Of a stretch of DNA of 64,000 bases, positions 47,929 to 63,325 are shown in pieces (within the stretch, counting starts at the first letter, position 1; the number at the start of each line of letters is the position of its first letter). This stretch comes from an uncultured Alphaproteobacteria bacterium. Its GTDB lineage: Bacteria; Pseudomonadota; Alphaproteobacteria; HIMB59; GCA-002718135. The notes beneath the pieces were generated by a model, which saw nothing but the letters and a program-made list of their open reading frames with translations, did no database searches and was not told the origin of the DNA. A program made the position numbers and the translations under genes. Location of the stretch: NCBI GenBank assembly GCA_902602695.1, contig CACKRO010000005.1, positions 37,229-101,228 on the forward strand, read 5' to 3'.

Positions 47929-48240
47929 TTAATCTAAATGCATTTGTAATGGTAATAAGTATGGAAAATTTGTTTTTGGATCAATATCTACTTTCATAAT
48001 TGGTTCCATATATTCAGACCATTTTTTATTAATTTCGCTATTAGAGATAAAATTAATTGATTTATTAAGATCATCAGTTTCAAAATATCCAAAAAGTTTT
48101 ATTCCATATCTAAAAATATTATAATTTCGTAATCCAGCTTCTTTAAGCATTTGAACCATTTCTGGCCAAATTTCATCATGTCTCTTTTTATATTCTTCCT
48201 CATATCCTGGTCGGATTTCAAGAATCCATGCGTAATTCAT
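47929..48240 (-). CDS. rhaM: L-rhamnose mutarotase family protein
   Basis: MNYAWILEIRPGYEEEYKKRHDEIWPEMVQMLKEAGLRNYNIFRYG; start 48240 preferred. Confidence 0.8.
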   Translation of the reverse strand: MNYAWILEIRPGYEEEYKKRHDEIWPEMVQMLKEAGLRNYNIFRYGIKLFGYFETDDLNKSINFISNSEINKKWSEYMEPIMKVDIDPKTNFPYLLPLQMHLD

Positions 48241-48317
48241 AAAACCTCTTTTCAAATAAAAAATATGTATTAATTTTATAAACTTATAGAAAAAATTCAA
48301 TTTTTTAAAAAATATAA

Positions 48318-49226
48318 ATGGAAAGAATAGCTATTATTGACTCGCATCATCATCTATGGGATCTTGATTCTAAAGAAACACATTATCCTTGGTTAAGTAG
48401 TAATGAAGAAAAAGCTTTTTATGGAAGTTATAAAAGTATTAAAAAGAGTTATTTATTAGATGATTATTTAAATGATGCAAAAAATCAAAATCTTGTAAAA
48501 TCAATACATGTTCAGGCTGAACATGATGCAATGAACCCGATAGAAGAAACAAAATGGTTACAAAATATTTCAGATAATAATAATTTAAAAATCCCAAATG
48601 GTATAGTTGCATTTGCAGATTTTTCTAAAGAAAGAGTCAGTGAAGATCTTGATCAACACCTTATATATAAAAATGTAAGAGGAATTAGACAAATCTTGTC
48701 ATTTGATAAAGATAAACCTCAATATTCTCATGCTAAAAAAGATTTTCTAAAAGACGAGGTATGGCTAAATAACTTTAGACATATAGCCGATAGAGACTTA
48801 TCTTTTGATATCCAAATATATCCTCATCAGTTTGATGATGCTTGTAAATTAGCTAAACGGTATCCAAATGTTCTGTTTATCTTAAATCATACTGGCGAGC
48901 CTTGTCTCCAAACAAAAGAATACAAAAATTATTGGATGAGAAAAATGCAATCTTTAGCCAAAAATGAAAATTTTGTTTGTAAAATATCAGGTTTAGGAAT
49001 GTTTAATCCTAATTGGACAATTATTTCAACTGAATATTTTATTCTTAAGACAATTGAGATTTTTGGTATTGATAGGTGTATGTTTGGATCAAATTTTCCT
49101 GTAGATAAAATTTTTAACACTTTTGATAACTATTGGAATTCATATTTTGAAATAGTAAAAAATTTTTCAAAAGATGAACATAATAAAATTTTTTTAAAAA
49201 ATGCAGAGAAGTTTTATAGAATTTAA
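48318..49226 (+). CDS. Amidohydrolase-2 family (sugar lactonase-like)
   Basis: IIDSHHHLWDLDSKETHYPWL; FILNHTGEP; RCMFGSNFPVDK. Confidence 0.8.
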   Translation: MERIAIIDSHHHLWDLDSKETHYPWLSSNEEKAFYGSYKSIKKSYLLDDYLNDAKNQNLVKSIHVQAEHDAMNPIEETKWLQNISDNNNLKIPNGIVAFADFSKERVSEDLDQHLIYKNVRGIRQILSFDKDKPQYSHAKKDFLKDEVWLNNFRHIADRDLSFDIQIYPHQFDDACKLAKRYPNVLFILNHTGEPCLQTKEYKNYWMRKMQSLAKNENFVCKISGLGMFNPNWTIISTEYFILKTIEIFGIDRCMFGSNFPVDKIFNTFDNYWNSYFEIVKNFSKDEHNKIFLKNAEKFYRI

Positions 49227-50203
49227 TGAGAAATAAAAAAAGTATAGCTGTTCTTTTAGGTGATCCATCTGGAATAGGCCCTGAATTAATTTCAAAAATT
49301 CTATCTCATAATATTTTAAAAAAAATAAATATTATAATTATTGGAGAAAAATCTATATTTGATCAATATTTAACGAAACCAAAAAATAAAAAAAATATTA
49401 AATTAATTAATAATTTTGATCAGATAGAATTTAAAAATACTAATAAAATTTTCTTTGATATTAATAAAAGAAAAGTAAGATATCCAATTGGAAAAGCAAA
49501 TATCAAATCAGGAATTTCTGTTCTAAATTCTATCGATATAGCAGTTGATTTATATAATAAGAAAAAAATAGATGGAATTAATTTTGCTCCGTTTAATAAA
49601 ACAAGTTTAGATCTTGCTGGTATGAAATTTAAAGATGAGCTCCATTATTTTAAAAATAAATTTAAAATAAAAAGCTATGTTTGTGAACTTAACGTATTAA
49701 ATAATTTTTGGACTGCACGAGTAACTTCACATATTCCCCTTAAAGATGTTGCAAAAAATATCACTATTAAAAATATTATTGAACCAATTAAATTAGTTAA
49801 CAAGTATTTAAAAAAAAATGGATTAAAAAATCCGAAAGTAGGTGTTCAAGCTTTAAATCCTCACGCTGAGTTTGGAAATGAAGAGAAAAAAATAATAATT
49901 CCTGCAATAAACAAAGCAAGAAAAATGAAAATCAAAGCTTTTGGCCCGTTACCATGTGATACATCATTTATTAGAGCTTATAAAAATAAAGAGTATAATT
50001 GTCTTGTCGGTATGTATCATGACGCCATACAATCAGGTCTTAAATCGTTTGGATTTGAAAAAGGTGTTACTGTTCAAGGAGGTCTACCAATACCTATAAC
50101 TACACCTGCTCATGGAACAGCTTTTGATATTGTGGGTAAAAATAAAGCTAATGTAAGTCCGATGCTCGAATCTTTAAAGTTATTACTTAAACTCTTATCT
50201 TAA
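49226..50203 (+). CDS. PdxA-family dehydrogenase (divergent)
   Basis: LLGDPSGIGPELI, ALNPHAEFGNEE, YHDAIQSGLKSFGF, AHGTAFDIVG. Confidence 0.75.
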   Translation: MRNKKSIAVLLGDPSGIGPELISKILSHNILKKINIIIIGEKSIFDQYLTKPKNKKNIKLINNFDQIEFKNTNKIFFDINKRKVRYPIGKANIKSGISVLNSIDIAVDLYNKKKIDGINFAPFNKTSLDLAGMKFKDELHYFKNKFKIKSYVCELNVLNNFWTARVTSHIPLKDVAKNITIKNIIEPIKLVNKYLKKNGLKNPKVGVQALNPHAEFGNEEKKIIIPAINKARKMKIKAFGPLPCDTSFIRAYKNKEYNCLVGMYHDAIQSGLKSFGFEKGVTVQGGLPIPITTPAHGTAFDIVGKNKANVSPMLESLKLLLKLLS

Positions 50204-50252: not shown

Positions 50253-51437
50253 GTGAGTAAAATTTTAAGTGTTAAAGCAAAGGTCTATAAATGGACAGGG
50301 CCCGTTCAAAAAATTCACGAAAACTTTTGCACAAATGCTGCAGATATTGTGAATCAAGAAAATATTTCAAATGATAGATGGACAACATATAAATTTCATA
50401 ATTGGTTAGTTGTAGAAGTAGAAACAAGTGATGGTTTTATAGGTTTAGGTAATGCTGCATTATCCCCAGAACCATGTAAATCAGTTGTAGATACTTATTT
50501 AGCGCCAGCCATTATTGGTGAAAGTATATGGGATTATGAGCATATATGGCAAAAGATGTATCGACAAACACTAGCTTGGGGAAGAAAAGGTGTAGGTATG
50601 ACAGCTATTAGTGCTGTTGATATTGCAATATGGGATGCACTTGGAAAATCTGCTAAACAACCTGTATTCAAATTATTAGGTGGAAAAACTAAATCAAAAC
50701 TCCCTTGTTATGCAAGTAAGCTTTACAGTCAACCTCTTGATAGTCTTGCAAAAGAAGCTAAAGATTATGTAGATCAAGGTTTTAAAGCAATGAAATTAAG
50801 ACTTGGTTGGGGTCCGACTGATGGTGCTGAAGGTATGCACAAGAATATTGAGTTAATCAAAACAGTACGATCAGTTGTTGGTGATAATGTTGATCTTATG
50901 GCTGATGTATATATGGGATGGACATTTGAATATGCAAAAAGAATGATGAGATTAATTGATAATGAAAATCTTCGTTGGTTAGAAGAACCAGTTATTGCTG
51001 ATGATATTGATGGTTATGCAGATCTAAAAGCTTCATGTAGAACTCCTATATCTGGTGGTGAACATGAATATACACTTTTTGGTTTTAGACAATTACTAGA
51101 AAAAAAAGCAATTGATGTTGTGCAATTTGATACGAATAGAGTTGGTGGAATAACACAGGCGCATAAAATTTCTGCTTTAGCTGAAGCATTTCAAATACCC
51201 GTTATTCCTCATGCTGGACAAGTCCATAATTTTCATATTTCCATGAGTTCAGTCAACGCTCCTATTGTCGAATATTTTCCATTCTGGCCAGTAGAAATTG
51301 GTAATGAATTATTTTGGTATGTTTTTGATGGAGAGCCTCAAGCAAAAAATGGTTTTATTGAATTAGATGAAAATAAGCACGGATTAGGAATAGAGTTATC
51401 CGAAAAATATTTAGATAACTTTGACATTCATCAATAA
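50253..51437 (+). CDS. Mandelate racemase/enolase-superfamily sugar acid dehydratase (rhamnonate dehydratase-like)
   Basis: GTG start; AVDIAIWDALGK, KAMKLRLGWGPTDG, LMADVYMGW, WLEEPV, GGEHEYT, IPHAG. Confidence 0.8.
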   Translation: MSKILSVKAKVYKWTGPVQKIHENFCTNAADIVNQENISNDRWTTYKFHNWLVVEVETSDGFIGLGNAALSPEPCKSVVDTYLAPAIIGESIWDYEHIWQKMYRQTLAWGRKGVGMTAISAVDIAIWDALGKSAKQPVFKLLGGKTKSKLPCYASKLYSQPLDSLAKEAKDYVDQGFKAMKLRLGWGPTDGAEGMHKNIELIKTVRSVVGDNVDLMADVYMGWTFEYAKRMMRLIDNENLRWLEEPVIADDIDGYADLKASCRTPISGGEHEYTLFGFRQLLEKKAIDVVQFDTNRVGGITQAHKISALAEAFQIPVIPHAGQVHNFHISMSSVNAPIVEYFPFWPVEIGNELFWYVFDGEPQAKNGFIELDENKHGLGIELSEKYLDNFDIHQ

Positions 51438-51440
51438 TAT

Positions 51441-53174
51441 TTAGTGGCTATGTCTTTTGACTTCAGCACCTCTTTTTCCAATTAGAAAATCTAAATCTGC
51501 TCCTTTGTCGGCTTGCATCACATGTTCTACATACATTTTTTGATAACCACCTGTTATTTCTGGAACAACGGGTGAATAATTTTCCAGACGATTTTTTATT
51601 GTTTCATCATCAACTTTTAAATTCATTGTACCTTGATCAACATCAACTTCTATTTCATCACCATTTTGAACGGCTGCTAAAGGCCCTTTAACAGCAGCTT
51701 CTGGAGCTGTATGAAGTATTACTGTACCATAGGCTGTTCCACTCATTCTAGCATCAGATATTCGAATCATATCTCTCACACCTTTCTTAAGTACTTTTTG
51801 TGGAAGTCTCATATTTCCAACTTCAGCCATACCAGGATAGCCCTTTGGTCCACAATTTTTTAAAACTAATATTGAATTTTCATCAACTTCTAAATTAGGA
51901 TCATCAATCTTTTCATGAAATTCTTCTACGCTTTCAAAAACTACCGCTTTTCCCGTATGTTTCATTAATTCTGGTGATGCAGCTGATGGTTTAATAATTG
52001 CACCATTTGGAGCGATATTACCCCTAAGAATTTTAATACCTCCATTTTTTGTTAATGGATTTTCGAATTCTTTTATAACGTCATTGTTCCAACATTTAGA
52101 ATTTATATTATTCTCAGCTATTGTTTTTCCATTAACAGTCATTGAATTTTCATCTAGTAATTTTTTTTCCATTAATCTTTTTATAACTACAGGAACGCCA
52201 CCTGCATAATAAAAATCTTCCATTAAGTATTTCCCTGAAGGCTGTAGATTTACTAATGTTGGAATACCTTCCCCACATTTATTCCAATCATCTAAATCTA
52301 AATCAATTTCCATTCGACCAGCAATTGCAGCTAAATGGATAACTGCATTTGTAGATCCACCTATTGCTCCATTTACTTTAATTGCATTTTCAAATGATTT
52401 TTTTGTAACAATTTTTGACATTGTTATATCTTCCTTGACCATTTCAACAATTCTTTTTCCAGACATGTGCGCTAAAGCATATCTTCTTGAATCTACTGCA
52501 GGTATTGCAGCATTTCCAGGAAGTGACATTCCTAATGCTTCTACCATTGAACCCATTGTTGATGCAGTTCCCATTGTCATACAGTTTCCTTTTGAACGGC
52601 TCATTGAGATTTCAGCATTAATAAAATCTTCTTCAGTTATTATGCCCGCATTTAAATCTGCATCCAGTTTCCAAACTCCTGTTCCAGAACCTATTGTTTC
52701 CCCTTGATGATGTCCATTTAGCATTGGGCCACCAGAGACACCAATTGTAGGAAGATCAACACTTGCAGCCCCCATCATCAATGATGGAGTTGTTTTATCA
52801 CAACCCATTAGTAGTACTACTCCATCTATAGGATTGCCCCTTATTGCTTCTTCAACGTCCATACTTGCTAAATTTCTAAACAACATAGCTGTTGGTCGTA
52901 AATTGGATTCACTTGCTGAAAAAACTGGAAATTCTAAAGGAAAGCCTCCTGCCTCATAAACACCTTTTTTAACAGACTCAGCAATTTCTCTGAAATGTCC
53001 ATTACATGGTGTTAATTCAGACCAAGTATTACAAATACCAATTACAGGACGCCCGTCAAATAAATGGTTTGGATGACCTTGATTTCTCATCCAGCCTCTA
53101 TGAATAAATGTATCTCTTCGATGTGATTTAGAATTATACCAATTAGAAGATCTATATTTATTTTTTTTATTCAT
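51441..53174 (-). CDS. IlvD/Edd family dehydratase (arabonate/pentonate dehydratase-like)
   Basis: GICNTWSELTPCNGHFREIAE, LMGCDKTTPSLMMGA, GNCMTMGTASTMG. Confidence 0.9.
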   Translation of the reverse strand: MNKKNKYRSSNWYNSKSHRRDTFIHRGWMRNQGHPNHLFDGRPVIGICNTWSELTPCNGHFREIAESVKKGVYEAGGFPLEFPVFSASESNLRPTAMLFRNLASMDVEEAIRGNPIDGVVLLMGCDKTTPSLMMGAASVDLPTIGVSGGPMLNGHHQGETIGSGTGVWKLDADLNAGIITEEDFINAEISMSRSKGNCMTMGTASTMGSMVEALGMSLPGNAAIPAVDSRRYALAHMSGKRIVEMVKEDITMSKIVTKKSFENAIKVNGAIGGSTNAVIHLAAIAGRMEIDLDLDDWNKCGEGIPTLVNLQPSGKYLMEDFYYAGGVPVVIKRLMEKKLLDENSMTVNGKTIAENNINSKCWNNDVIKEFENPLTKNGGIKILRGNIAPNGAIIKPSAASPELMKHTGKAVVFESVEEFHEKIDDPNLEVDENSILVLKNCGPKGYPGMAEVGNMRLPQKVLKKGVRDMIRISDARMSGTAYGTVILHTAPEAAVKGPLAAVQNGDEIEVDVDQGTMNLKVDDETIKNRLENYSPVVPEITGGYQKMYVEHVMQADKGADLDFLIGKRGAEVKRHSH

Positions 53175-53205: not shown

Positions 53206-54081
53206 TCAAATTTTAAATTTATTATCTTCAATACCAGGAGTAGTAACATTTAATGCAAATAGGCTGCCATCATATTTATTTTTACCTGAGTTATTAGCAG
53301 TAGTAATAAATAGAGTTTTAAGATCATTGCCGCCAAATACACAATTTGTTACATTTTCAACAGGTAGCTCGTAAATTTGATCAACCCTACCTTTTGGATC
53401 AATTTTCACAACACATGATCCACCCCAACGACAATTCCAAATAAATCCATCACTATCAATAGTTGATCCATCTGGAGCACCTCTATCAAAATTGAAGAAG
53501 TTTTTTTTGTCTGACAAACTACCTTCATCTAGGTTAAACTTGTATTCGAGTAATGATCCCTCAGTTGTATCAGCAAAATAAAATTTTGTGTTATCTGGAC
53601 TCCAAACAAATGTATTAGGTATACCAAGATTTGTTTCAACAATATTAACCTTATTATTAGATAGACAATATAAACTACCAGATTTAGCATTTAAAGATTT
53701 TGCACTTCCATCTTGATTAAAATTATTTTGCATCGTCCCAAACCAAAGCCTACCTTTAGCATCTGATGCACCATCATTAGATCTATTTGTTAGAATATCA
53801 TCTTCAACATTAATTATTCTTTCATATTTTTTAGATTGAAAGTTAAATTTATTTACTCCATTATTTGAGACTAAAGCAGTTTCATTCTTTGAGATTATTG
53901 ACGTCGCTGTTACAAAATCAGGTAAATCAAAAGTTTCTAATTTATCGTTATCTAAATTAATTCTGAATAAAACTGATTTTGGTTTAATATCTACCCAAAG
54001 TAAACTTTGATCAATGGAAGACCAAGTGATGCCTTCTCCTAAACTATTTTTTACATCTTTATATAATTCGACCTTACTCAT
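53206..54081 (-). CDS. SMP-30/gluconolactonase family protein
   Basis: LGEGITWSSIDQSLLWVDI; RSNDGASDAKGRLWFGTM; APDGSTIDSDGFIWNCRWGG. Confidence 0.9.
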   Translation of the reverse strand: MSKVELYKDVKNSLGEGITWSSIDQSLLWVDIKPKSVLFRINLDNDKLETFDLPDFVTATSIISKNETALVSNNGVNKFNFQSKKYERIINVEDDILTNRSNDGASDAKGRLWFGTMQNNFNQDGSAKSLNAKSGSLYCLSNNKVNIVETNLGIPNTFVWSPDNTKFYFADTTEGSLLEYKFNLDEGSLSDKKNFFNFDRGAPDGSTIDSDGFIWNCRWGGSCVVKIDPKGRVDQIYELPVENVTNCVFGGNDLKTLFITTANNSGKNKYDGSLFALNVTTPGIEDNKFKI

Positions 54082-54125: not shown

Positions 54126-55130
54126 TTAGAGGTAATGGGCTTTATCTTTGATACGAGCCATTACTTCCTTAGTGGCTTCTTCAGATCCATCATGGAACGT
54201 GCCCATTAATTTATCTAAGAAACTAGTATTTCCGCCTGAGTAATTGCATTCAAAATATTTATGATGAATATAATGCATATAATCACCTGTTGGAATTGAT
54301 ACACCATTTTTGAAAGTCATTTTTTCATATCCTGTATGTCCAGGTGTAGGTGCTAAACCAGCATGAAATACATGATACATCGCAACAAGAGGATGTGAAG
54401 GGATTATCCAATGAACTAAGATACCTGAAAAATATAATATATGCTCTATTGGATGCATAGACATACCTGACCAAGCACCTGTATTCGTATTACGGTGGTG
54501 AACTTTATGTGCAATTTTATAAAGTGGTGCCCAGTGCAATAGTCTATGAGTTAAGTAAAAATGTGCATCTCTTATAAATGGAACAAGAAAGAACATGAAA
54601 CAACAATATATTGGATACGCCTCCCAGCTTACATATGGGATTATTTGATTTGCAAATGCCCAAAATGTAATTACTTCATAAGCTGTCCATAATGGAATAG
54701 CACTACAAAAAGTATAGAATAGGTTATCTTTAGTCTGATCATTAAATAAAAAAGTTGGGTTATTTTTTTCTAGAGGTCGTGGGTTATATTTAAATGAAGT
54801 TCCTTGAGTCTTCAGTCTTAAATGAAAGAAGCCTGTCCAAAGCAAAATAATAACTGCGTTCCTGAAAAATATATATGATATCCATCCTATTTCAAAAGTC
54901 TTCATTGTCTCTAAAGAAGGAGTCAAAAAAAGATATGTAGCAACTGTTATTGCTGCAAAGACAAATGTCCATGGGAAAAAAATTCCTGGAAATTTAAAAA
55001 AATATTTTAAAAATTTTATTGGGTTAAAAAATATATCTTTAGGTGGGTTAATACTTATTGTACCAAATGGTTTCCAGTGACCCCTTTTATCTCTTTTACC
55101 AAAGTCACTATCATTTAGCTGATTTCCCAT
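54126..55130 (-). CDS. Sterol desaturase/fatty acid hydroxylase superfamily di-iron protein
   Basis: His boxes HRLLH, HKVHHRN, HYIHHKYFECNYSG. Confidence 0.85.
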   Translation of the reverse strand: MGNQLNDSDFGKRDKRGHWKPFGTISINPPKDIFFNPIKFLKYFFKFPGIFFPWTFVFAAITVATYLFLTPSLETMKTFEIGWISYIFFRNAVIILLWTGFFHLRLKTQGTSFKYNPRPLEKNNPTFLFNDQTKDNLFYTFCSAIPLWTAYEVITFWAFANQIIPYVSWEAYPIYCCFMFFLVPFIRDAHFYLTHRLLHWAPLYKIAHKVHHRNTNTGAWSGMSMHPIEHILYFSGILVHWIIPSHPLVAMYHVFHAGLAPTPGHTGYEKMTFKNGVSIPTGDYMHYIHHKYFECNYSGGNTSFLDKLMGTFHDGSEEATKEVMARIKDKAHYL

Positions 55131-55168
55131 TGTATATTTATAGTATATTTTGAATAAAAAAAAAGAGA

Positions 55169-56185
55169 CTAAATTGTCGTATCTGGAACCTTCACATCAA
55201 TAAAATAATTTTTATCTTTAGATTGCTTAAATATTGCTGGAATTATTGATCTATAAGCAGAAATTATTCCGTTATGAGGTTCTGGCATTTGATTTTTAAC
55301 TATTTTGTGAAATTTTTTTAAATTATGGCATGGGATTTTTGGGAAAATGTGATGCTCAATATGATACTCCATGTTTGAATACAAAAAACTAAAAAAAGGA
55401 TTCATAATAACGGTTCTTGTACTTTTTCTATGATCTTTAATATTATCAGCTAGTCCAGCATGTTGAGTCATGCCGCATATCATTAATATAGTATTACCAT
55501 AAAATGGAGGTAAAATTATCATTATGATTGGTAGCCATGATTGTAACAAAACTGAACATAAAATTACGAGCAACCAAAAACTTAAATATAATCTTGAACT
55601 ATTAATAATTTTTTTTATCTCCTTTTCAGGTACTGTAACTTTTACAACATGAGTAATTATCCCAAATGAATGTTTAATAATTTCAAAATGTGTAAAATGT
55701 CTAATTTTTTGAATATTAATTATTGGACCAAGAGGTAAAAAATTTAAAAGAAATCTAATAGGCTCTGTTGGTTTCGGACTATTATTTTCGTAATCGTACA
55801 CCTCTTCATGTGTAAATATAGTGTAAGTATGATGATGAAAATGACTCCACTTCCATCTAACTGCTTCAAAACCACCGAGTAAAGAAGTTATATGATAAAA
55901 AAGTTTATTTAACGCTCTTGTTTTAAAATATGTTTCGTGATTTGTTTCATGTTGAATGCTTATGATTTTACAATAGAAAATATTTCCATAAAGCAAAAGA
56001 GCAGGTATTGACCATAAAGTACCCCAACTTAGAATACACAGATATCCACTTAATATTAGAGCAACAATAAATATGGATATATCTAATAAACCTTTTGTAT
56101 CAGATCTCTTAGAAAGTTCCTTTAAAGTTTTCTTATCAATTTTTGGTTTATACCAAGTTTTTAAATCAACTTCGCCCGCAAACAT
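55169..56185 (-). CDS. Fatty acid desaturase-fold protein, MocD-like (paralog A)
   Basis: His boxes HETNH, HFHHHTYT, MEYHIEHHIFP; co-linear with 58641..59627. Confidence 0.8.
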   Translation of the reverse strand: MFAGEVDLKTWYKPKIDKKTLKELSKRSDTKGLLDISIFIVALILSGYLCILSWGTLWSIPALLLYGNIFYCKIISIQHETNHETYFKTRALNKLFYHITSLLGGFEAVRWKWSHFHHHTYTIFTHEEVYDYENNSPKPTEPIRFLLNFLPLGPIINIQKIRHFTHFEIIKHSFGIITHVVKVTVPEKEIKKIINSSRLYLSFWLLVILCSVLLQSWLPIIMIILPPFYGNTILMICGMTQHAGLADNIKDHRKSTRTVIMNPFFSFLYSNMEYHIEHHIFPKIPCHNLKKFHKIVKNQMPEPHNGIISAYRSIIPAIFKQSKDKNYFIDVKVPDTTI

Positions 56186-56188
56186 TAA

Positions 56189-57016
56189 TCAAAATTTTTC
56201 TGAAAGCTTTAAAAATTTTTCAAATTCACTTTCATCAATGTTAACTGTGATTTTAGGATCATTAAATTTTTTGTTTACCGTGTCATCGTGAAACTCTTTG
56301 AATGCACTTACTCTTTCAGCTTGTAATTTTGCAAATTCTTTTTTAAAATCTCTATAAATTCGCGCATGTCTTGGAATTTTTCCTTGGGTATATCCGAGTA
56401 CATCATTAGCAAATAAATATTGCCCATCACATCCAGAACCACTTCCCATTGAGAGAGTCATGATATCAACTTTTTTTGTAATAACTTCTGCAACTTTTGG
56501 AGGAACTACTTCGAGTTCAACTCCGATAGCCCCCGCTTCTTGTAACTCAAGAGTATGTTCTAAAATTCTAACGGCTTTATCAGCAGTTTTACCTTGTGCA
56601 ATAAATCCTCCAATCCAAGTAGCATTTCCTGGAACTAATCCAACATGACTATTAATTGGAACATACTCATCTCTTAATGCTCTAATCCATTTGTAACTCC
56701 AATTACCACCATAGATAACATCTGCGCCAATGTCTAAATACTTGTGTGATAGTTTCATTGCTTCATATTCAGAAGCTACTCTTACTGCCCCTCCGGATTG
56801 CATAAAGCAAGTTGGTGCAGCCTCGCGAATTCGCTTAAGCTCATCAAAAGAATTGTAAATACCAAATTGTGGAGCATCATGAGAAGTACAAATCATGTCA
56901 ATGCCAGCCTCTTCAGCTGCTGCAGCTTCGTCAGCATTATGTACAAACATAACACTTAGTTGTCTTTTACCTTTGCATTGCAAATAATCATAAACCGTAA
57001 GTTTTTTTCTGCTCAT
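56189..57016 (-). CDS. PanB-like TIM-barrel protein with altered active site
   Basis: NSHVGLVPGNATWIGGFIAQGKTADKAVRILEHTLELQEAGAIGVELEVVPPKVAEVITKKV...SGCDGQYLFANDVLGYTQGKIPRHAR matches PanB; N-terminal ligand motifs differ. Confidence 0.75.
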   Translation of the reverse strand: MSRKKLTVYDYLQCKGKRQLSVMFVHNADEAAAAEEAGIDMICTSHDAPQFGIYNSFDELKRIREAAPTCFMQSGGAVRVASEYEAMKLSHKYLDIGADVIYGGNWSYKWIRALRDEYVPINSHVGLVPGNATWIGGFIAQGKTADKAVRILEHTLELQEAGAIGVELEVVPPKVAEVITKKVDIMTLSMGSGSGCDGQYLFANDVLGYTQGKIPRHARIYRDFKKEFAKLQAERVSAFKEFHDDTVNKKFNDPKITVNIDESEFEKFLKLSEKF

Positions 57017-57035: not shown

Positions 57036-57353
57036 TTAATCTATCTTAATGAAAATTTTGTCATTATCAACTTTAACTGGATATGTTTTTAAATCCTCAC
57101 ACGCTGGTGGGCTTAAAGCTTCTCCGGATTTAATATTAAAAATTCCCTGGTGCATTGGACATTCAATTTCATCATCCATAACCAAACCATCTTCAAGATG
57201 TACCGCCTCATGTGTACAAATTCCATCAGTAGCATAAAAACCATCTGTTAGTTTATACACACAAAAAGTTTTATCTTGATGATCAAATCTGATGAGATCC
57301 TCTTCTTCAATACTATCTGTAGACCCTACTTCAATCCAATTTTCTTCAGACAT
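57036..57353 (-). CDS. Rieske [2Fe-2S] ferredoxin (MocE-like)
   Basis: CTHEAVHLEDGLVMDDEIECPMHQGIFNIKSGEALSPP (CxH...CxxH). Confidence 0.9.
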   Translation of the reverse strand: MSEENWIEVGSTDSIEEEDLIRFDHQDKTFCVYKLTDGFYATDGICTHEAVHLEDGLVMDDEIECPMHQGIFNIKSGEALSPPACEDLKTYPVKVDNDKIFIKID

Positions 57354-57405
57354 AAATTGTATATAATAGCTATTTTGTGAAAATAAATAAAAAATAATTA
57401 AATTG

Positions 57406-58635
57406 TTATTTTTGTATAAGTTTATTTAATTTTAGATTTTGATCTGAGAGAATTTGTTTATCTACAATGGTATCTTTCTCAGTTAATTTAGAAGTTATTC
57501 TAATGTCACGGCCTACTTTTCCAATGATTCCAACACCACATGCTCCTCTTATTTTATTATTTTTTAGGAAAAAATAAATAACACCATTATTAATATCATT
57601 ACCTCTTTCGATAATTTCATCATACTCATCACAAATACCAGTCAGTTGAAGATTCAAATTAAATTGATCAGACCACATCCAAGGAATTGAAGTGTATTCT
57701 GTTTTTACTCCAGCAATATTTTTTCCAGCACATATTCCATGATTTTGTGCATGTTGATAAGACTCAAGTCGCATATTTCTTTCATAGAATGGATGATAAA
57801 AATTAGATACATCACCTGCTGCAAAAACATCTTTAATAGAAGTTTCACAAAATTGATTAGTTACAATACCATTATCAAGCTTTAAATTTGTATTTTCAAA
57901 TAACTTTACAGTCGGGGTTGAGCCTATACCTGCAATTATAAAATCTGTTTCTATTAGAGTATTATCATTTAATAAAATTTCATAATCGCCATTTTTTTTA
58001 GTTATTTTTTCTATCTGTTTATTTAATATTATTTCATTTCCATGTTCTATATGAGTGTTTTGAACTAAATCAGCAATTTGTTTGGGTATAATTCTTCCCA
58101 TAAGTTGACTGCCAATTTCAATAACAATTACTTTCTTTTGAAGCTGAGATAAAGATGAGGCAATTTCTAAGCCAATGAAACCGCCACCAATAATTGTTAT
58201 TTTATTTTTATTTGAAACTATTTCTTTAATTTTTTTGGCTTCTTCTAAATTTCTTAGATAATAAATATCATTCTTTAAATTATTATCTAAAGTAAGTTTT
58301 TTATTTTCAGAACCTGTTGAAATAAGCAAACTATCATAAGAGTAAACATTATCATTTTTTGCAAAAAGTTTTTTATTTTCAAAATCAACTTTATTAATTG
58401 ATATATTTTCAAATTCTATATTTTCATTTTTTAGTACGTCGCTAGAATGAAAATAAAGATCTTCTTCTTTTTTTTTATCTAGCAAAAAATCTTTAGATAA
58501 AGGAGGTCTTTCGTATGGTAATAAATTTTCTTCACCTAAAATTTTAATATTTGATTCTGTATCATTTTTTCTAATTTCTCTTGCAGCATAGATTCCGGCT
58601 TGACCACCGCCTAGAATTGTAATGTTATTTTTCAC
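57406..58635 (-). CDS. FAD-dependent ferredoxin reductase (MocF/oxygenase reductase-like)
   Basis: ILGGGQAGIYAA, LPYERPPLSKDFLL, IGGGFIGLEIAS, VFAAGDVSNF, ESYQHAQNHG. Confidence 0.9.
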   Translation of the reverse strand: MKNNITILGGGQAGIYAAREIRKNDTESNIKILGEENLLPYERPPLSKDFLLDKKKEEDLYFHSSDVLKNENIEFENISINKVDFENKKLFAKNDNVYSYDSLLISTGSENKKLTLDNNLKNDIYYLRNLEEAKKIKEIVSNKNKITIIGGGFIGLEIASSLSQLQKKVIVIEIGSQLMGRIIPKQIADLVQNTHIEHGNEIILNKQIEKITKKNGDYEILLNDNTLIETDFIIAGIGSTPTVKLFENTNLKLDNGIVTNQFCETSIKDVFAAGDVSNFYHPFYERNMRLESYQHAQNHGICAGKNIAGVKTEYTSIPWMWSDQFNLNLQLTGICDEYDEIIERGNDINNGVIYFFLKNNKIRGACGVGIIGKVGRDIRITSKLTEKDTIVDKQILSDQNLKLNKLIQK

Positions 58636-58640
58636 TTAGT

Positions 58641-59627
58641 TTAAGCGTTGCTTGGAACAGATAATGGAATTTGATAGTCTGGATTTTTTGCTTGTTTTAT
58701 GAGTGCTGGAATAATTTCTTTATAAGCCCCAAGAAGACCTTTTCTTGCAGGTGGTAATTGATCTTTAATCATAGCATGCAGCTTAGGTAAATTATGTGAG
58801 GGAACTTGAGGGAACATATGGTGCTCAACATGATATTCCATATGCCAATATAAAAAACTTAAAACTGGATTTAAATATACTGTTCTAGTTGTATACCTAT
58901 GGTCTCTTTTATCTTCTCTAAGTCCGGCGTGCTGAGTAAGGCCCATAAGCATGACAAGTGTTTTTCCATAAAAATTAGGCAATAAAACATATAGAACTGG
59001 AAGCCAGCTTTGAAAGTATACTGAAGAAGCAATACTTATGATCCAAATAGAGAGATGACTCCACGCAGATAATCTACATTTCCATCTTTCGTTTTCAGGA
59101 ATACAAACTTTCATTACATCTGTAGTTACACCGAAGGCATGTTTTATAGTTTCCCATTGAAGAGAATTTTTAAAGAAAAATAAACTTGAAAATGGAATAT
59201 AGTGAGAGAAAAATACAATCAAGTCAGTTGGTTTTTTTACATGTATTTCAAAATCTACAGGATCATTAAATTGAGTATAGGTATGATGATGGTAGTGTGA
59301 ATACCTCCATCTAATCGGCTCAAAGTTATCCATAAAGCTGGCTATGTAATAAAAGAAGTCATTCCAGAATTTAGATTTAAAAGCTGTTCTATGACCAGTT
59401 TCGTGCCAAATAGCATCACTGCATCCCCAAATGTTTCCATATATTAAAAAAAATAGTAAAGACCACCAAGTGCCCCAAGTAACATATGCTAAATAACCGA
59501 AAAGAACCAAAGAAGAGAAAAAAATAATCATGTGTTTGAAACCTTGCCAATCAGATTTCACACATAATTGTTTAAATTCTTTTTTATCTATGTTGGCTCT
59601 ATACCATTTACCTAAATCCACATCCAT
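58641..59627 (-). CDS. Fatty acid desaturase-fold protein, MocD-like (paralog B)
   Basis: His boxes HETGH, HYHHHTYT, MEYHVEHHMFP. Confidence 0.85.
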   Translation of the reverse strand: MDVDLGKWYRANIDKKEFKQLCVKSDWQGFKHMIIFFSSLVLFGYLAYVTWGTWWSLLFFLIYGNIWGCSDAIWHETGHRTAFKSKFWNDFFYYIASFMDNFEPIRWRYSHYHHHTYTQFNDPVDFEIHVKKPTDLIVFFSHYIPFSSLFFFKNSLQWETIKHAFGVTTDVMKVCIPENERWKCRLSAWSHLSIWIISIASSVYFQSWLPVLYVLLPNFYGKTLVMLMGLTQHAGLREDKRDHRYTTRTVYLNPVLSFLYWHMEYHVEHHMFPQVPSHNLPKLHAMIKDQLPPARKGLLGAYKEIIPALIKQAKNPDYQIPLSVPSNA

Positions 59628-59817: not shown

Positions 59818-60798
59818 ATGAAAAAAATTTTTGCCGTCATTGCTCTATTTTTTGCTTTTGTATCTACTTCAGCAGTAGCAAAAAATGATTACAGCTGTGA
59901 TAAGAAATTTATCTTTTTCCCAGGTGGGCCAGAAGGTGGACCATTTGGAACTATCGTTTACAATGGTGCAGTAGCTGCAGCAGAACATACTGGTTGTGAC
60001 GTAGATTATTACTGGTCACAATGGAATTCAGAAATTATGATTAAGCAATTTAAAGAAGCTGTTGCATTACAGCCAGACGGAATTGCAATTTATGGTTTTC
60101 CAGGTGATGCAGCAATGAGACCTATTATTCAAGAAGCAAGAGAAATGGGAATTGTTATCACAACTATGAACACGCCACTTCCTGATCTTGAATCTGAATT
60201 TAAAACTGAAGGTTTTGGTTACGCAGGTGCAGATCTTTTTGATGCTGGATTTAATCTAGGTAAAAAAGCTGTTGATGTCTGTGGATTACAAGCTGGAGAT
60301 AAAGCGTTTATTTGGGGTCTTGCAAGTATGCCAAATAGAGGAGAAAGAACTAAAGGTGCAATAGCTGGTGTTGAAGCAGCTGGTGTAGAAGTTGTATATC
60401 AAGAAATACCTGATAATGTAAACTCAGATGCATCTCAAGGAACTCCTATGTACGTTGCGACTTACAGTGCAAATCCTGATATCAAAATGGCAATTACTGA
60501 TCATGGTGGATTGACTGCAAGTTTACCTACTTACATGAAAGCTGCAGGTCACGGTACTGAAGAAGTCTGTGGTGCTGGATTTGACTTATCAGCTCCGATT
60601 GTTGATGGAATAAATTCTGGTTACATAGATGTAGTAATTGATCAGCAACCATTTATTCAAGGGTATATGCCAATAATTCAATTATTCCTAAGTACAAAAT
60701 ATGGAATGGCTGGATTAGCAATGGATACTGGTGCTGCATTTGTTACAGCTGATAATGTGGAAGCTGTTGCTCCATTAGCAGCGGTACAAATAAGATAA
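59818..60798 (+). CDS. Ribose-type (RbsB/MocB-like) periplasmic sugar-binding protein
   Basis: Signal peptide; ALQPDGIAIYGFPGDAAMRPIIQEAREMGIVITTMNTP. Confidence 0.85.
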   Translation: MKKIFAVIALFFAFVSTSAVAKNDYSCDKKFIFFPGGPEGGPFGTIVYNGAVAAAEHTGCDVDYYWSQWNSEIMIKQFKEAVALQPDGIAIYGFPGDAAMRPIIQEAREMGIVITTMNTPLPDLESEFKTEGFGYAGADLFDAGFNLGKKAVDVCGLQAGDKAFIWGLASMPNRGERTKGAIAGVEAAGVEVVYQEIPDNVNSDASQGTPMYVATYSANPDIKMAITDHGGLTASLPTYMKAAGHGTEEVCGAGFDLSAPIVDGINSGYIDVVIDQQPFIQGYMPIIQLFLSTKYGMAGLAMDTGAAFVTADNVEAVAPLAAVQIR

Positions 60799-60845: not shown

Positions 60846-61613
60846 ATGGCAGAAGAACTCTTAAAATTAGAAAATATATACAAAAACTTTGGAAACGTAA
60901 AAGTTTTAAAAGACGTAAACATTAAAATAAATAAAGGTGAAGTAGTAGCTTTAATAGGTGATAACGGAGCTGGCAAATCAACACTTATAAAAGTCATAAC
61001 TGGAGTTCATAGTCCAAACTCAGGAAAAGTATTTTTTAAAAATGAAGAAGTGCAAATTAAATCAGTTGCTCAATCAAGAAAAATGGGAATTGAAGCAGTT
61101 TACCAAGAAAGAGCATTGTGTGATCAACAAGAATTATTTAGAAACATATTTGCTGGAAGAGAAATTACAAATTCATTTGGCTTTTTAGATATAAAAAAAC
61201 AGAGAAAAGAAGCAGAAAAAATTCTTCGTGACTATATTGGATTTACATCAAAGGCTATAACAGTTGACTCTCAAGTAATGGGATTATCTGGTGGAGAAAA
61301 GCAAGGTGTTGCTTTTGGTAGATCATTATATTTTAATTCTGATTTGATCGTATTAGATGAGCCAACTATGGGCTTATCAATTCAAGAAACAGAAAAAGTC
61401 CTGAATTTCGTAAAGGGTTTAAAAAATGAAAATAAATCAGCAATTTTTATCGATCATAATATAATTCATGTCTATGGTGCTGCAGATCGATTTATTATTT
61501 TGGATAGGGGTGAAGTTGTAGGAGAGTTTAATAAAGAAGAAATATCAAGAGAAGAACTTGTACAGAAAATGATACAGTTGCATGAATCTGGGAAAATTAA
61601 AGTGGAAGATTAA
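60846..61613 (+). CDS. Sugar ABC transporter ATP-binding protein (single-domain)
   Basis: Walker A GDNGAGKST, LSGGEKQG, Walker B LIVLDEPT. Confidence 0.9.
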   Translation: MAEELLKLENIYKNFGNVKVLKDVNIKINKGEVVALIGDNGAGKSTLIKVITGVHSPNSGKVFFKNEEVQIKSVAQSRKMGIEAVYQERALCDQQELFRNIFAGREITNSFGFLDIKKQRKEAEKILRDYIGFTSKAITVDSQVMGLSGGEKQGVAFGRSLYFNSDLIVLDEPTMGLSIQETEKVLNFVKGLKNENKSAIFIDHNIIHVYGAADRFIILDRGEVVGEFNKEEISREELVQKMIQLHESGKIKVED

Positions 61614-62591
61614 ATGAGTAATTTATTAAATAGTTATTTTGTAAAAACACATAAACTTGAGATTAGTATTACAATAATCGCAATCGTTCTGTTTCTAATA
61701 TACTTTTTAGGTGCACCACATGTTTTCACTCGCTTTCCAATTTATAGGGCATTTATGCAATCAATGCCTTTTTTTGGAATCATTGCTATATCAGCAACAT
61801 TTGTCGTTACGCTTGGTGAAATTGATTTATCATTTCCTTCTATAGTTGGAATTACTTCATTAATATTTGGAATGGTTATGACATCAACTGATGGTAACGT
61901 TTTCATTGCATTTATACTTGCAACTTCTCTTGGAATGTTTGCGGGTCTAGTTAATGGATTACTCGTTACTAAAATAGGTATTCCTTCAATAGTAGCTACA
62001 ATAGGGACATTATTTTTTTGGCGTGGATTGGTTAATGTAATTTCCCAAGGAAGTGGTATTGCAATCGTCGATGTAGCAGATGGAACCTGGCATCATATGA
62101 TATTTGTTGAAAAATTATTTGGAAAAATTCCAATGCAATTTATTTGGTTCATTGTTTTAACTGGATTAATGCAATGGGTTTATCGATACCATAAATTTGG
62201 AAATCACATCCACTTTGTAGGTGACAACAAAGCAAGTGCTCAAATGATGGGAATTAATGTTGATAATGTAAAAATTATTGCTTTTGTTCAACTTGGATTT
62301 TTCTCTGCTTTAGCAGGAATCTTTACAATGTATGAAATGTTATATTTCTGGCCTACACAAGGTGAAGGTTTAATGTTAACGACACTAGCAGCTGTCTTTG
62401 TTGGTGGTACTTCAGTCTTTGGTGGTAAAGGTACTATTTTTGGAACTTTTATTGGAGTATTAATTATTGGATCATTAGAATCAGGAATAGTTGCTTTAGG
62501 GTTATCTGGTTTTTATGTAAAATTTATTAACGGACTCATGATTACAGTAGCCGTAACAGTCTACGCTCTAATACAAAGAAGAAAAAATTAA
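61614..62591 (+). CDS. Ribose-type ABC transporter permease
   Basis: GEIDLSFPSIVGI, GLVNGLLVTKIGIPSIVATIGT, FVGGTSVFGGKGTIFGT. Confidence 0.9.
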   Translation: MSNLLNSYFVKTHKLEISITIIAIVLFLIYFLGAPHVFTRFPIYRAFMQSMPFFGIIAISATFVVTLGEIDLSFPSIVGITSLIFGMVMTSTDGNVFIAFILATSLGMFAGLVNGLLVTKIGIPSIVATIGTLFFWRGLVNVISQGSGIAIVDVADGTWHHMIFVEKLFGKIPMQFIWFIVLTGLMQWVYRYHKFGNHIHFVGDNKASAQMMGINVDNVKIIAFVQLGFFSALAGIFTMYEMLYFWPTQGEGLMLTTLAAVFVGGTSVFGGKGTIFGTFIGVLIIGSLESGIVALGLSGFYVKFINGLMITVAVTVYALIQRRKN

Positions 62592-63325
62592 TAAGTAGCT
62601 CTACCTCCACTCAAATCAAAAGTTGAGCCTGTTGTGTAAGAATTTTCTTCAGAAGACATCCATGCAACTAAAGAAGCTAATTCTTCAACTAACACAAATC
62701 TATTTCTAGGAATTTTTGATAACATATAATCAATATGTTCTTGGGTAATTTGATCAAAAATACGCGTTTTAGCAGGCGCAGGAGTAACACAATTTACTGA
62801 AATGTTATTTTCTGCTAATTCTTTTCCTAAAGATTTAGTAAGTGCGATAACTCCTGCTTTAGCTGCACTATAAGGCATTGCATTAGGATTACCTTCCTTA
62901 CCAGCTATCGAAGAAATATTAACTATACGTCCATAATTATGTTTTATGAAATGAGGAACTATAGTTTTGCAGCAATAAAATACTCCACTTAGATCTATAT
63001 CTATAACTTTTTGCCATTCCTCAAGCGGATAATCCCATGTCTTAAAGTTTGGTCCAGCTATTCCTGCATTATTTATTAAAATATCAATTTTGTTTTCATA
63101 CGTAAGACTTTTGGCAAATGCACTCTCTACACTTTTATAATTTGAAACATCAACTTCAATTTTTTGAGTATTTTTTAAATCAACTTTATTCAAATATTCT
63201 GTATCTTTATCCCATATTAATACTTTTGCACCTGACTCAATAAATCTTTTTGTAATTGCTAACCCAAAGCCTTGTGCTCCACCTGTTACAATTGCGACTC
63301 TATTTTCTAAATTAATTTTATTCAT
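62588..63325 (-). CDS. SDR-family oxidoreductase
   Basis: AIVTGGAQGFGLAI, LINNAG, YSAAKAG, GSTFDLSGGRA. Confidence 0.9.
   Translation of the reverse strand: MNKINLENRVAIVTGGAQGFGLAITKRFIESGAKVLIWDKDTEYLNKVDLKNTQKIEVDVSNYKSVESAFAKSLTYENKIDILINNAGIAGPNFKTWDYPLEEWQKVIDIDLSGVFYCCKTIVPHFIKHNYGRIVNISSIAGKEGNPNAMPYSAAKAGVIALTKSLGKELAENNISVNCVTPAPAKTRIFDQITQEHIDYMLSKIPRNRFVLVEELASLVAWMSSEENSYTTGSTFDLSGGRATY

Follow-up and report, generated by a model that had tools for sequence, protein, structure and literature searches.

A PanB-like protein family lacking the PanB metal site, encoded beside oxygenases in SAR11 and rhizobia, is a candidate for joining formaldehyde to tetrahydrofolate

What does a homologue of PanB do when it is encoded among oxygenases and has lost the residues of the PanB metal site? 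The question is raised by an open reading frame, here named KPL, in a 64,000-nucleotide stretch of a contig from an uncultured Alphaproteobacteria bacterium (the window; Table 1). A sequence-only reading had taken the protein for a PanB homologue whose C-terminal half aligns with PanB. The homology was borne out: Pfam PF02548 matched at 130.6 bits (cut-off 28.7), with an alignment covering residues 82–251 only, the C-terminal part, and the nearest solved structures were PanB both by sequence and by predicted fold. Structure prediction, which had been proposed as a check, returned an AlphaFold2 model (pLDDT 89.4, pTM 0.81) with the PanB TIM-barrel fold, for which the best Foldseek match was 3vav (E 1.9e-18, TM 0.70); PrpB and PEP mutase were also returned. 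The models specific to panB were not passed, with 102.8 bits against the equivalog TIGR00222 (cut-off 207.55) and 118 against NF001452 (cut-off 272), and canonical homologues in the same genus and order did pass the equivalog cut-off. A decayed pseudogene was ruled out, because intact orthologues at 66–100% identity are found in many SAR11 genomes.

Residue positions were compared through profile and multiple alignments of 40 non-redundant KPL proteins, from SAR11 and other Alphaproteobacteria, and 18 canonical PanBs. In E. coli numbering, we take Asp45, Asp84 and Glu114 to be the Mg ligands of PanB, Lys112 to be a further active-site residue, and Glu181 and His136 to be catalytic. Asp45, Asp84, Lys112 and Glu114 were each found in 18/18 canonical proteins, against 1, 0, 0 and 0 of the 40 KPL proteins, and the window protein has H46, G75, Y102 and G104 at these positions. 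The earlier hand alignment, by which the Mg ligands and the Lys112/Glu114 region had been replaced, was therefore right, each position being lost in 39–40 of the 40 relatives. What did not hold was the picture of an odd single gene, as the loss is shared by a whole family, all 40 aligned members of which retain E169 and H124, equivalent to Glu181 and His136. An alignment artefact behind the lost residues was ruled out by the family-wide count with its 18 canonical controls. New invariants found in the KPL family only are E167, H217 and R64 (40/40), where canonical PanB has Leu or Val at the E167 position and Phe at the H217 position. Seven polar residues are invariant across the 40 proteins (R64, H124, E167, E169, D197, D205 and H217), and the K143 position is lysine in 39. 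In the model, E167 lies two residues ahead of E169 on one predicted strand (165–169), so the second carboxylate probably points into the barrel. No KPL residue could be linked to tetrahydrofolate (THF) binding from the alignment or the model.

In the tree, KPL and canonical PanB fall on two sides of one branch (length 1.11, support 100/100), with the window protein outside the canonical clade; the suggested phylogeny against true PanB thus gave a separate clade. KPL is a separate family with hundreds of members, and the best explanation is that it descended from PanB or is sister to it. A PanB-type match to the window KPL was found in all 61 SAR11-order genomes searched, some of which had canonical panB only. 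Strong KPL-type matches numbered up to seven or eight in one SAR11-order genome, and Rhizobiaceae genomes held 1–3 copies. An even draw of 387 Alphaproteobacteria genomes had KPL in 21 (E ≤ 1e-50), of which 16 do not belong to the SAR11 order, while a draw of 399 genomes from the phylum gave 18 matches, all within Alphaproteobacteria. Relatives were also present in 279 plasmid records, mostly Rhizobium and Sinorhizobium. No description of the family was found in the open-licence papers searched. Public records (L251, L252, L253, L289) annotate KPL as 3-methyl-2-oxobutanoate hydroxymethyltransferase with a pantothenate GO term, although those KPL proteins that were scored fall short of the panB cut-off. 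One KPL subclade carries an N-terminal MASHATGDG.IPPR-type extension (L132, L138–L140, L154–L163); in some MAGs it adjoins PhyH, and in others no oxygenase could be recognised among its neighbours.

That KPL is nevertheless an ordinary or divergent PanB of pantothenate synthesis is almost certainly wrong, and we reject it. The reading can draw on the PF02548 match, but the Mg and Lys residues are absent and KPL forms its own clade with 100/100 support. The proposed search for a second, canonical panB found one coexisting with KPL in relatives of the window genome: G221, from the same genus and 96% complete, carries one panB over the cut-off and four KPL, and G037, a single contig and 99% complete, carries one of each. 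Four other genomes (G282, G129, G177 and G143) have KPL and neither a panB over the cut-off nor panC. The window's own genome (G000) holds four KPL, with panC elsewhere and, as had been noted from the sequence, none beside KPL in the window. No canonical panB was found in G000, which would favour a pantothenate role, as would G289 and G425, where panC and KPL occur with no panB over the cut-off. The G000 assembly is only 73.9% complete, however, so the gene may be missing from the assembly only.

The gene had been described as sitting inside an oxygenase cluster, and oxygenases do lie on both sides of the window KPL. Across 222 KPL copies, with neighbours labelled by homology to seed proteins taken from these loci, an oxygenase of the FA_desaturase, FA_hydroxylase or PhyH family was found within two genes of 193 and directly adjoining 173, compared with 0/35 within two genes of canonical panB. 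Since many of the copies are orthologues, the Fisher p of 7e-26 for KPL versus panB neighbourhoods is overstated, and the count by KPL sequence cluster (17/21 with an oxygenase within two genes) is the fairer figure. Among 17 further loci from non-SAR11 genomes, an oxygenase lay alongside in 14, and an oxygenase or MocE ferredoxin in 16. The partners span three Pfam families (PF00487, PF04116 and PF05721), and so the link looks tied to chemistry and not to one substrate. KPL and oxygenase genes are paired almost one to one in some clusters (L112, L113, L121). In these loci a second, divergent KPL (277 aa) lies between a desaturase-type oxygenase and an FA_hydroxylase; the same oxygenase pair stands 38 bp apart in the window (55130–55169), where the second KPL of the relatives is absent. 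Elsewhere in the window's genome (L123:1-12400; G000:C5:6000-18400), tandem KPL genes and three PhyH-family genes lie beside NanE, ROK and BNR-repeat genes, which suggests that SAR11 breaks down a modified sialic acid, perhaps an O-methylated one. A different SAR11 family has a conserved KPL–oxygenase pair adjoining a glutamine-synthetase-like gene (L110:6815-9973, in G037; L116:9972-13120), hinting at an N-methylated rather than an O-methylated substrate.

Table 1. Genes of the KPL cluster in the window, with the basis of each label
Feature	Coordinates	Strand	Basis
L-rhamnose mutarotase-like	47929..48300	-	profile match below cut-off
Amidohydro_2 lactonase-like	48318..49226	+	best match L-fucono-1,5-lactonase, below cut-off
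PdxA-like dehydrogenase	49226..50203	+	profile match
Enolase-superfamily sugar-acid dehydratase	50253..51437	+	best match L-rhamnonate dehydratase, below cut-off
IlvD/Edd-type sugar-acid dehydratase	51441..53174	-	closest named sugar-acid equivalog L-arabinonate dehydratase, below cut-off
SMP-30/gluconolactonase-like	53206..54081	-	Pfam
FA_hydroxylase-fold oxygenase	54126..55130	-	Pfam
Second FA_desaturase-fold oxygenase, 3 bp from KPL	55169..56185	-	Pfam; ORF spacing
KPL (275 aa), KPHMT-like PanB homologue lacking the Mg/Lys site	56189..57016	-	Pfam, NCBIfam, model, Foldseek, alignment, tree
MocE-type Rieske ferredoxin	57036..57353	-	TIGR02377 136.0 bits, just under cut-off 136.15
FAD ferredoxin reductase (MocF/HcaD type)	57406..58635	-	profile match
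FA_desaturase-fold di-iron oxygenase (MocD-like), probable demethylase	58641..59627	-	Pfam; demethylase role by inference
Sugar-type periplasmic binding protein	59818..60798	+	best NCBIfam match rhizopine SBP, 82.7 bits, below cut-off
Sugar ABC ATPase	60846..61613	+	recognised from sequence only
Sugar ABC permease	61614..62591	+	recognised from sequence only
SDR dehydrogenase	62588..63325	-	profile match

The window carries an adjacent MocDEF-type set (57036–59627), made up of an FA_desaturase-fold oxygenase, a MocE ferredoxin 0.15 bits under its cut-off, and a reductase. Given the mutarotase-, lactonase- and dehydratase-like genes, the SDR and the sugar ABC transporter, an O-methylated deoxysugar is a reasonable guess at the substrate of the cluster, and no more. 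In rhizobia, KPL is the last gene of a mocD-mocE-mocF-KPL operon. A unit of LacI regulator, MocD-like oxygenase, MocE ferredoxin, FAD reductase and KPL was found in five rhizobial replicons or strains (S. meliloti pSymB, R. johnstonii pRL11, R. etli, Sinorhizobium sp. B11 and Rhizobium sp. SL42), and inositol-catabolism genes are added at the KPL loci of a Marivivens plasmid and of SL42. In Rhizobium sp. AB2/73 (L286) and 11515TR (L287), the operon extends to mocD-mocE-mocF-KPL-purU-folD on one strand, with gaps in L286 of about 23, 53 and 0 bp for mocF–KPL, KPL–purU and purU–folD; in these loci PurU scored 332 bits, over its cut-off, and FolD was confirmed. This gene order would place KPL between formaldehyde release and methylene-THF oxidation, an arrangement with the presumed formaldehyde source on one side and FolD/PurU on the other that we met in these two strains and not in SAR11.

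Other rhizobial loci vary the theme. KPL-purU-folD occurs without MocDEF in R. lusitanum (L288), mocD-mocE-KPL-purU occurs in G548, and KPL and purU lie within an inositol cluster in G177, while in Peteryoungia and Rhizobium SL42 a folD-purU-sugar ABC-LacI block is divergent from mocD-mocE-mocF-KPL-iolG. The distance from KPL to purU is 8–10 kb on plasmids of R. rosettiformans, Pararhizobium A13 and the two Neorhizobium galegae strains, and about 75 kb on R. johnstonii pRL11, so the link between the two genes is not universal. PurU exceeded its cut-off in 7 of the 24 KPL genomes tested and was within about 2.2 kb of KPL in two; chance placement would rarely give two such pairs in genomes of 3.5–6.5 Mb. 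Neither folD nor purU was found beside KPL in the SAR11 clusters searched, the window included.

PanB itself is a CH2-THF enzyme. The reading that we favour, with somewhat better than an even chance of being right, is that KPL is a one-carbon transfer enzyme acting after demethylating oxygenases, and that it would join formaldehyde or a hydroxymethyl group to THF. A methyl compound, putatively a methylated sugar or cyclitol, would be taken up, and oxygenases of the FA-desaturase-fold/MocD, FA_hydroxylase or PhyH type would oxidatively remove its O- or N-methyl groups, leaving a hydroxymethyl adduct that would release formaldehyde. KPL would then join the formaldehyde, or the still-bound hydroxymethyl group, to THF to give 5,10-methylene-THF; FolD would oxidise this to 10-formyl-THF, from which formate would be released by PurU or, in SAR11, by another THF enzyme. 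KPL would in this way keep the THF half-reaction of PanB, while binding of the alpha-keto acid and its enolisation on Mg2+ would have been lost with the Mg and Lys residues. The sequence-only reading had suggested a new reaction, possibly C1 or aldol chemistry, on the product of the oxygenases. That KPL has no pantothenate role and probably catalyses a new reaction of C1 type coupled to them is well supported by the separate clade, the coexisting panB, the KPL genomes without panB and panC, the demethylase-type operons and purU/folD; C1 transfer to folate is more likely than an aldol reaction on what the oxygenases produce.

Published work bears on this proposal from both sides. By spontaneous reaction, formaldehyde and THF condense too slowly in vivo, and PanB has been considered as a candidate for the step (PMC7073904), though in a delta-panB strain from the same study E. 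coli PanB made no difference to the condensation in vivo, which counts against the proposal. A 2022 review still calls the condensation spontaneous (PMC8879981). SAR11 strain HTCC1062 oxidises C1 through THF, without Gfa (PMC3160333), and mocDEF is needed for rhizopine catabolism, in a paper that does not state a demethylase role (PMC10107442).

The carbon skeleton could be the target instead of the methyl carbon, with KPL acting as a lyase or aldolase on a sugar or sugar acid, for example as a 2-keto-3-deoxy-acid aldolase. PanB is a member of the PEP-mutase/isocitrate-lyase superfamily, whose enzymes act on keto acids, and PrpB and PEP mutase are among the Foldseek hits; the sugar-acid dehydratases of the window should yield a 2-keto-3-deoxy acid, and a lysine is nearly always kept at K143. 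We consider this unlikely, as the metal and keto-acid residues are lost family-wide, the oxygenase partners come from three families, and KPL also adjoins PhyH at loci where no sugar-acid dehydratase was observed (L154, L162) and accompanies purU-folD alone in L288. The same oxygenase neighbourhoods would suit an enzyme that handles the C1 unit without THF, by hemiacetal cleavage or hydroxymethyl transfer to another acceptor, and so prevents formaldehyde leak. Use of free formaldehyde in the absence of THF is known for PanB variants (PMC7073904), and no THF gene was seen beside SAR11 KPL, but several rhizobia have purU and folD immediately downstream of KPL, which makes this reading quite unlikely. 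It is very unlikely that KPL serves the oxygenase as a subunit without catalytic activity, as a chaperone or in substrate delivery: seven polar residues would hardly be invariant in 40/40 proteins, and KPL-purU-folD occurs without an oxygenase in L288, even if the loss of the PanB metal site and the near one-to-one gene pairing in L112, L113 and L121 fit such a partner.

Compared with PanB (EC 2.1.2.11; PF02548, TIGR00222; 1m3u, 3vav, 1oy0), KPL is alike in its TIM-barrel fold, its Glu181/His136 equivalents, a CDGQ-like region and similar length. It differs in lacking Asp45, Asp84, Glu114 and Lys112, in its invariant E167, H217 and R64, in scoring below the equivalog cut-off, and in its gene neighbours, which are not panC but oxygenases, joined in some rhizobia by purU/folD. 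The job proposed for KPL is the one done by Fae with H4MPT and by Gfa with glutathione, namely faster condensation of formaldehyde with a C1 carrier, but in sequence and fold searches KPL resembles PanB and neither Fae nor Gfa, and its carrier would be THF. We give even chances to KPL being the THF counterpart of Fae, a dedicated maker of 5,10-methylene-THF from formaldehyde, or straight from a demethylase's hydroxymethyl product, that has been duplicated again and again to serve many demethylation pathways and lies hidden under the "pantothenate biosynthesis" label in SAR11, rhizobia and Rhodobacterales. With MocDEF catabolism of rhizopine (3-O-methyl-scyllo-inosamine), the rhizobial KPL loci have in common a MocD-like oxygenase, a MocE ferredoxin and an FAD reductase, which come before KPL, and no description of this fourth gene was found in the searchable literature. 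The rhizopine and inositol contexts point to oxidative methyl-ether demethylation of the MocDEF type, and KPL neighbours suggest other substrates too (inositols, deoxysugars, sialic acid). As for THF-linked formaldehyde oxidation, folD and purU are part of the KPL operon in several rhizobia; its first step is described as spontaneous (PMC8879981), and KPL is our candidate for that step.

If the proposal is true, a dedicated enzyme would close the gap at a step treated as spontaneous but measured in vivo to be far too slow, and would account for the ability of SAR11 and rhizobia to feed on methylated sugars and cyclitols without being poisoned. It would also offer a short THF route for synthetic methylotrophy and correct the pantothenate annotation of many public records, the plasmid records above among them. 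A third PanB-like group was also observed (L106:7965-9817, L107:7640-9600), with metal-type motifs SDSGG, VDMPY and CEGN. In both of these Alphaproteobacterial MAGs folD directly follows the PanB-like gene, and an ATP-sulfurylase and a fumarate-reductase-like flavoprotein lie in the vicinity in L106. A PanB-like gene adjoining a GcvT (glycine-cleavage T) gene has been reported near a methanesulfonate locus (PMC4433239). The third group may be a further derivative of PanB with a role in C1 metabolism.
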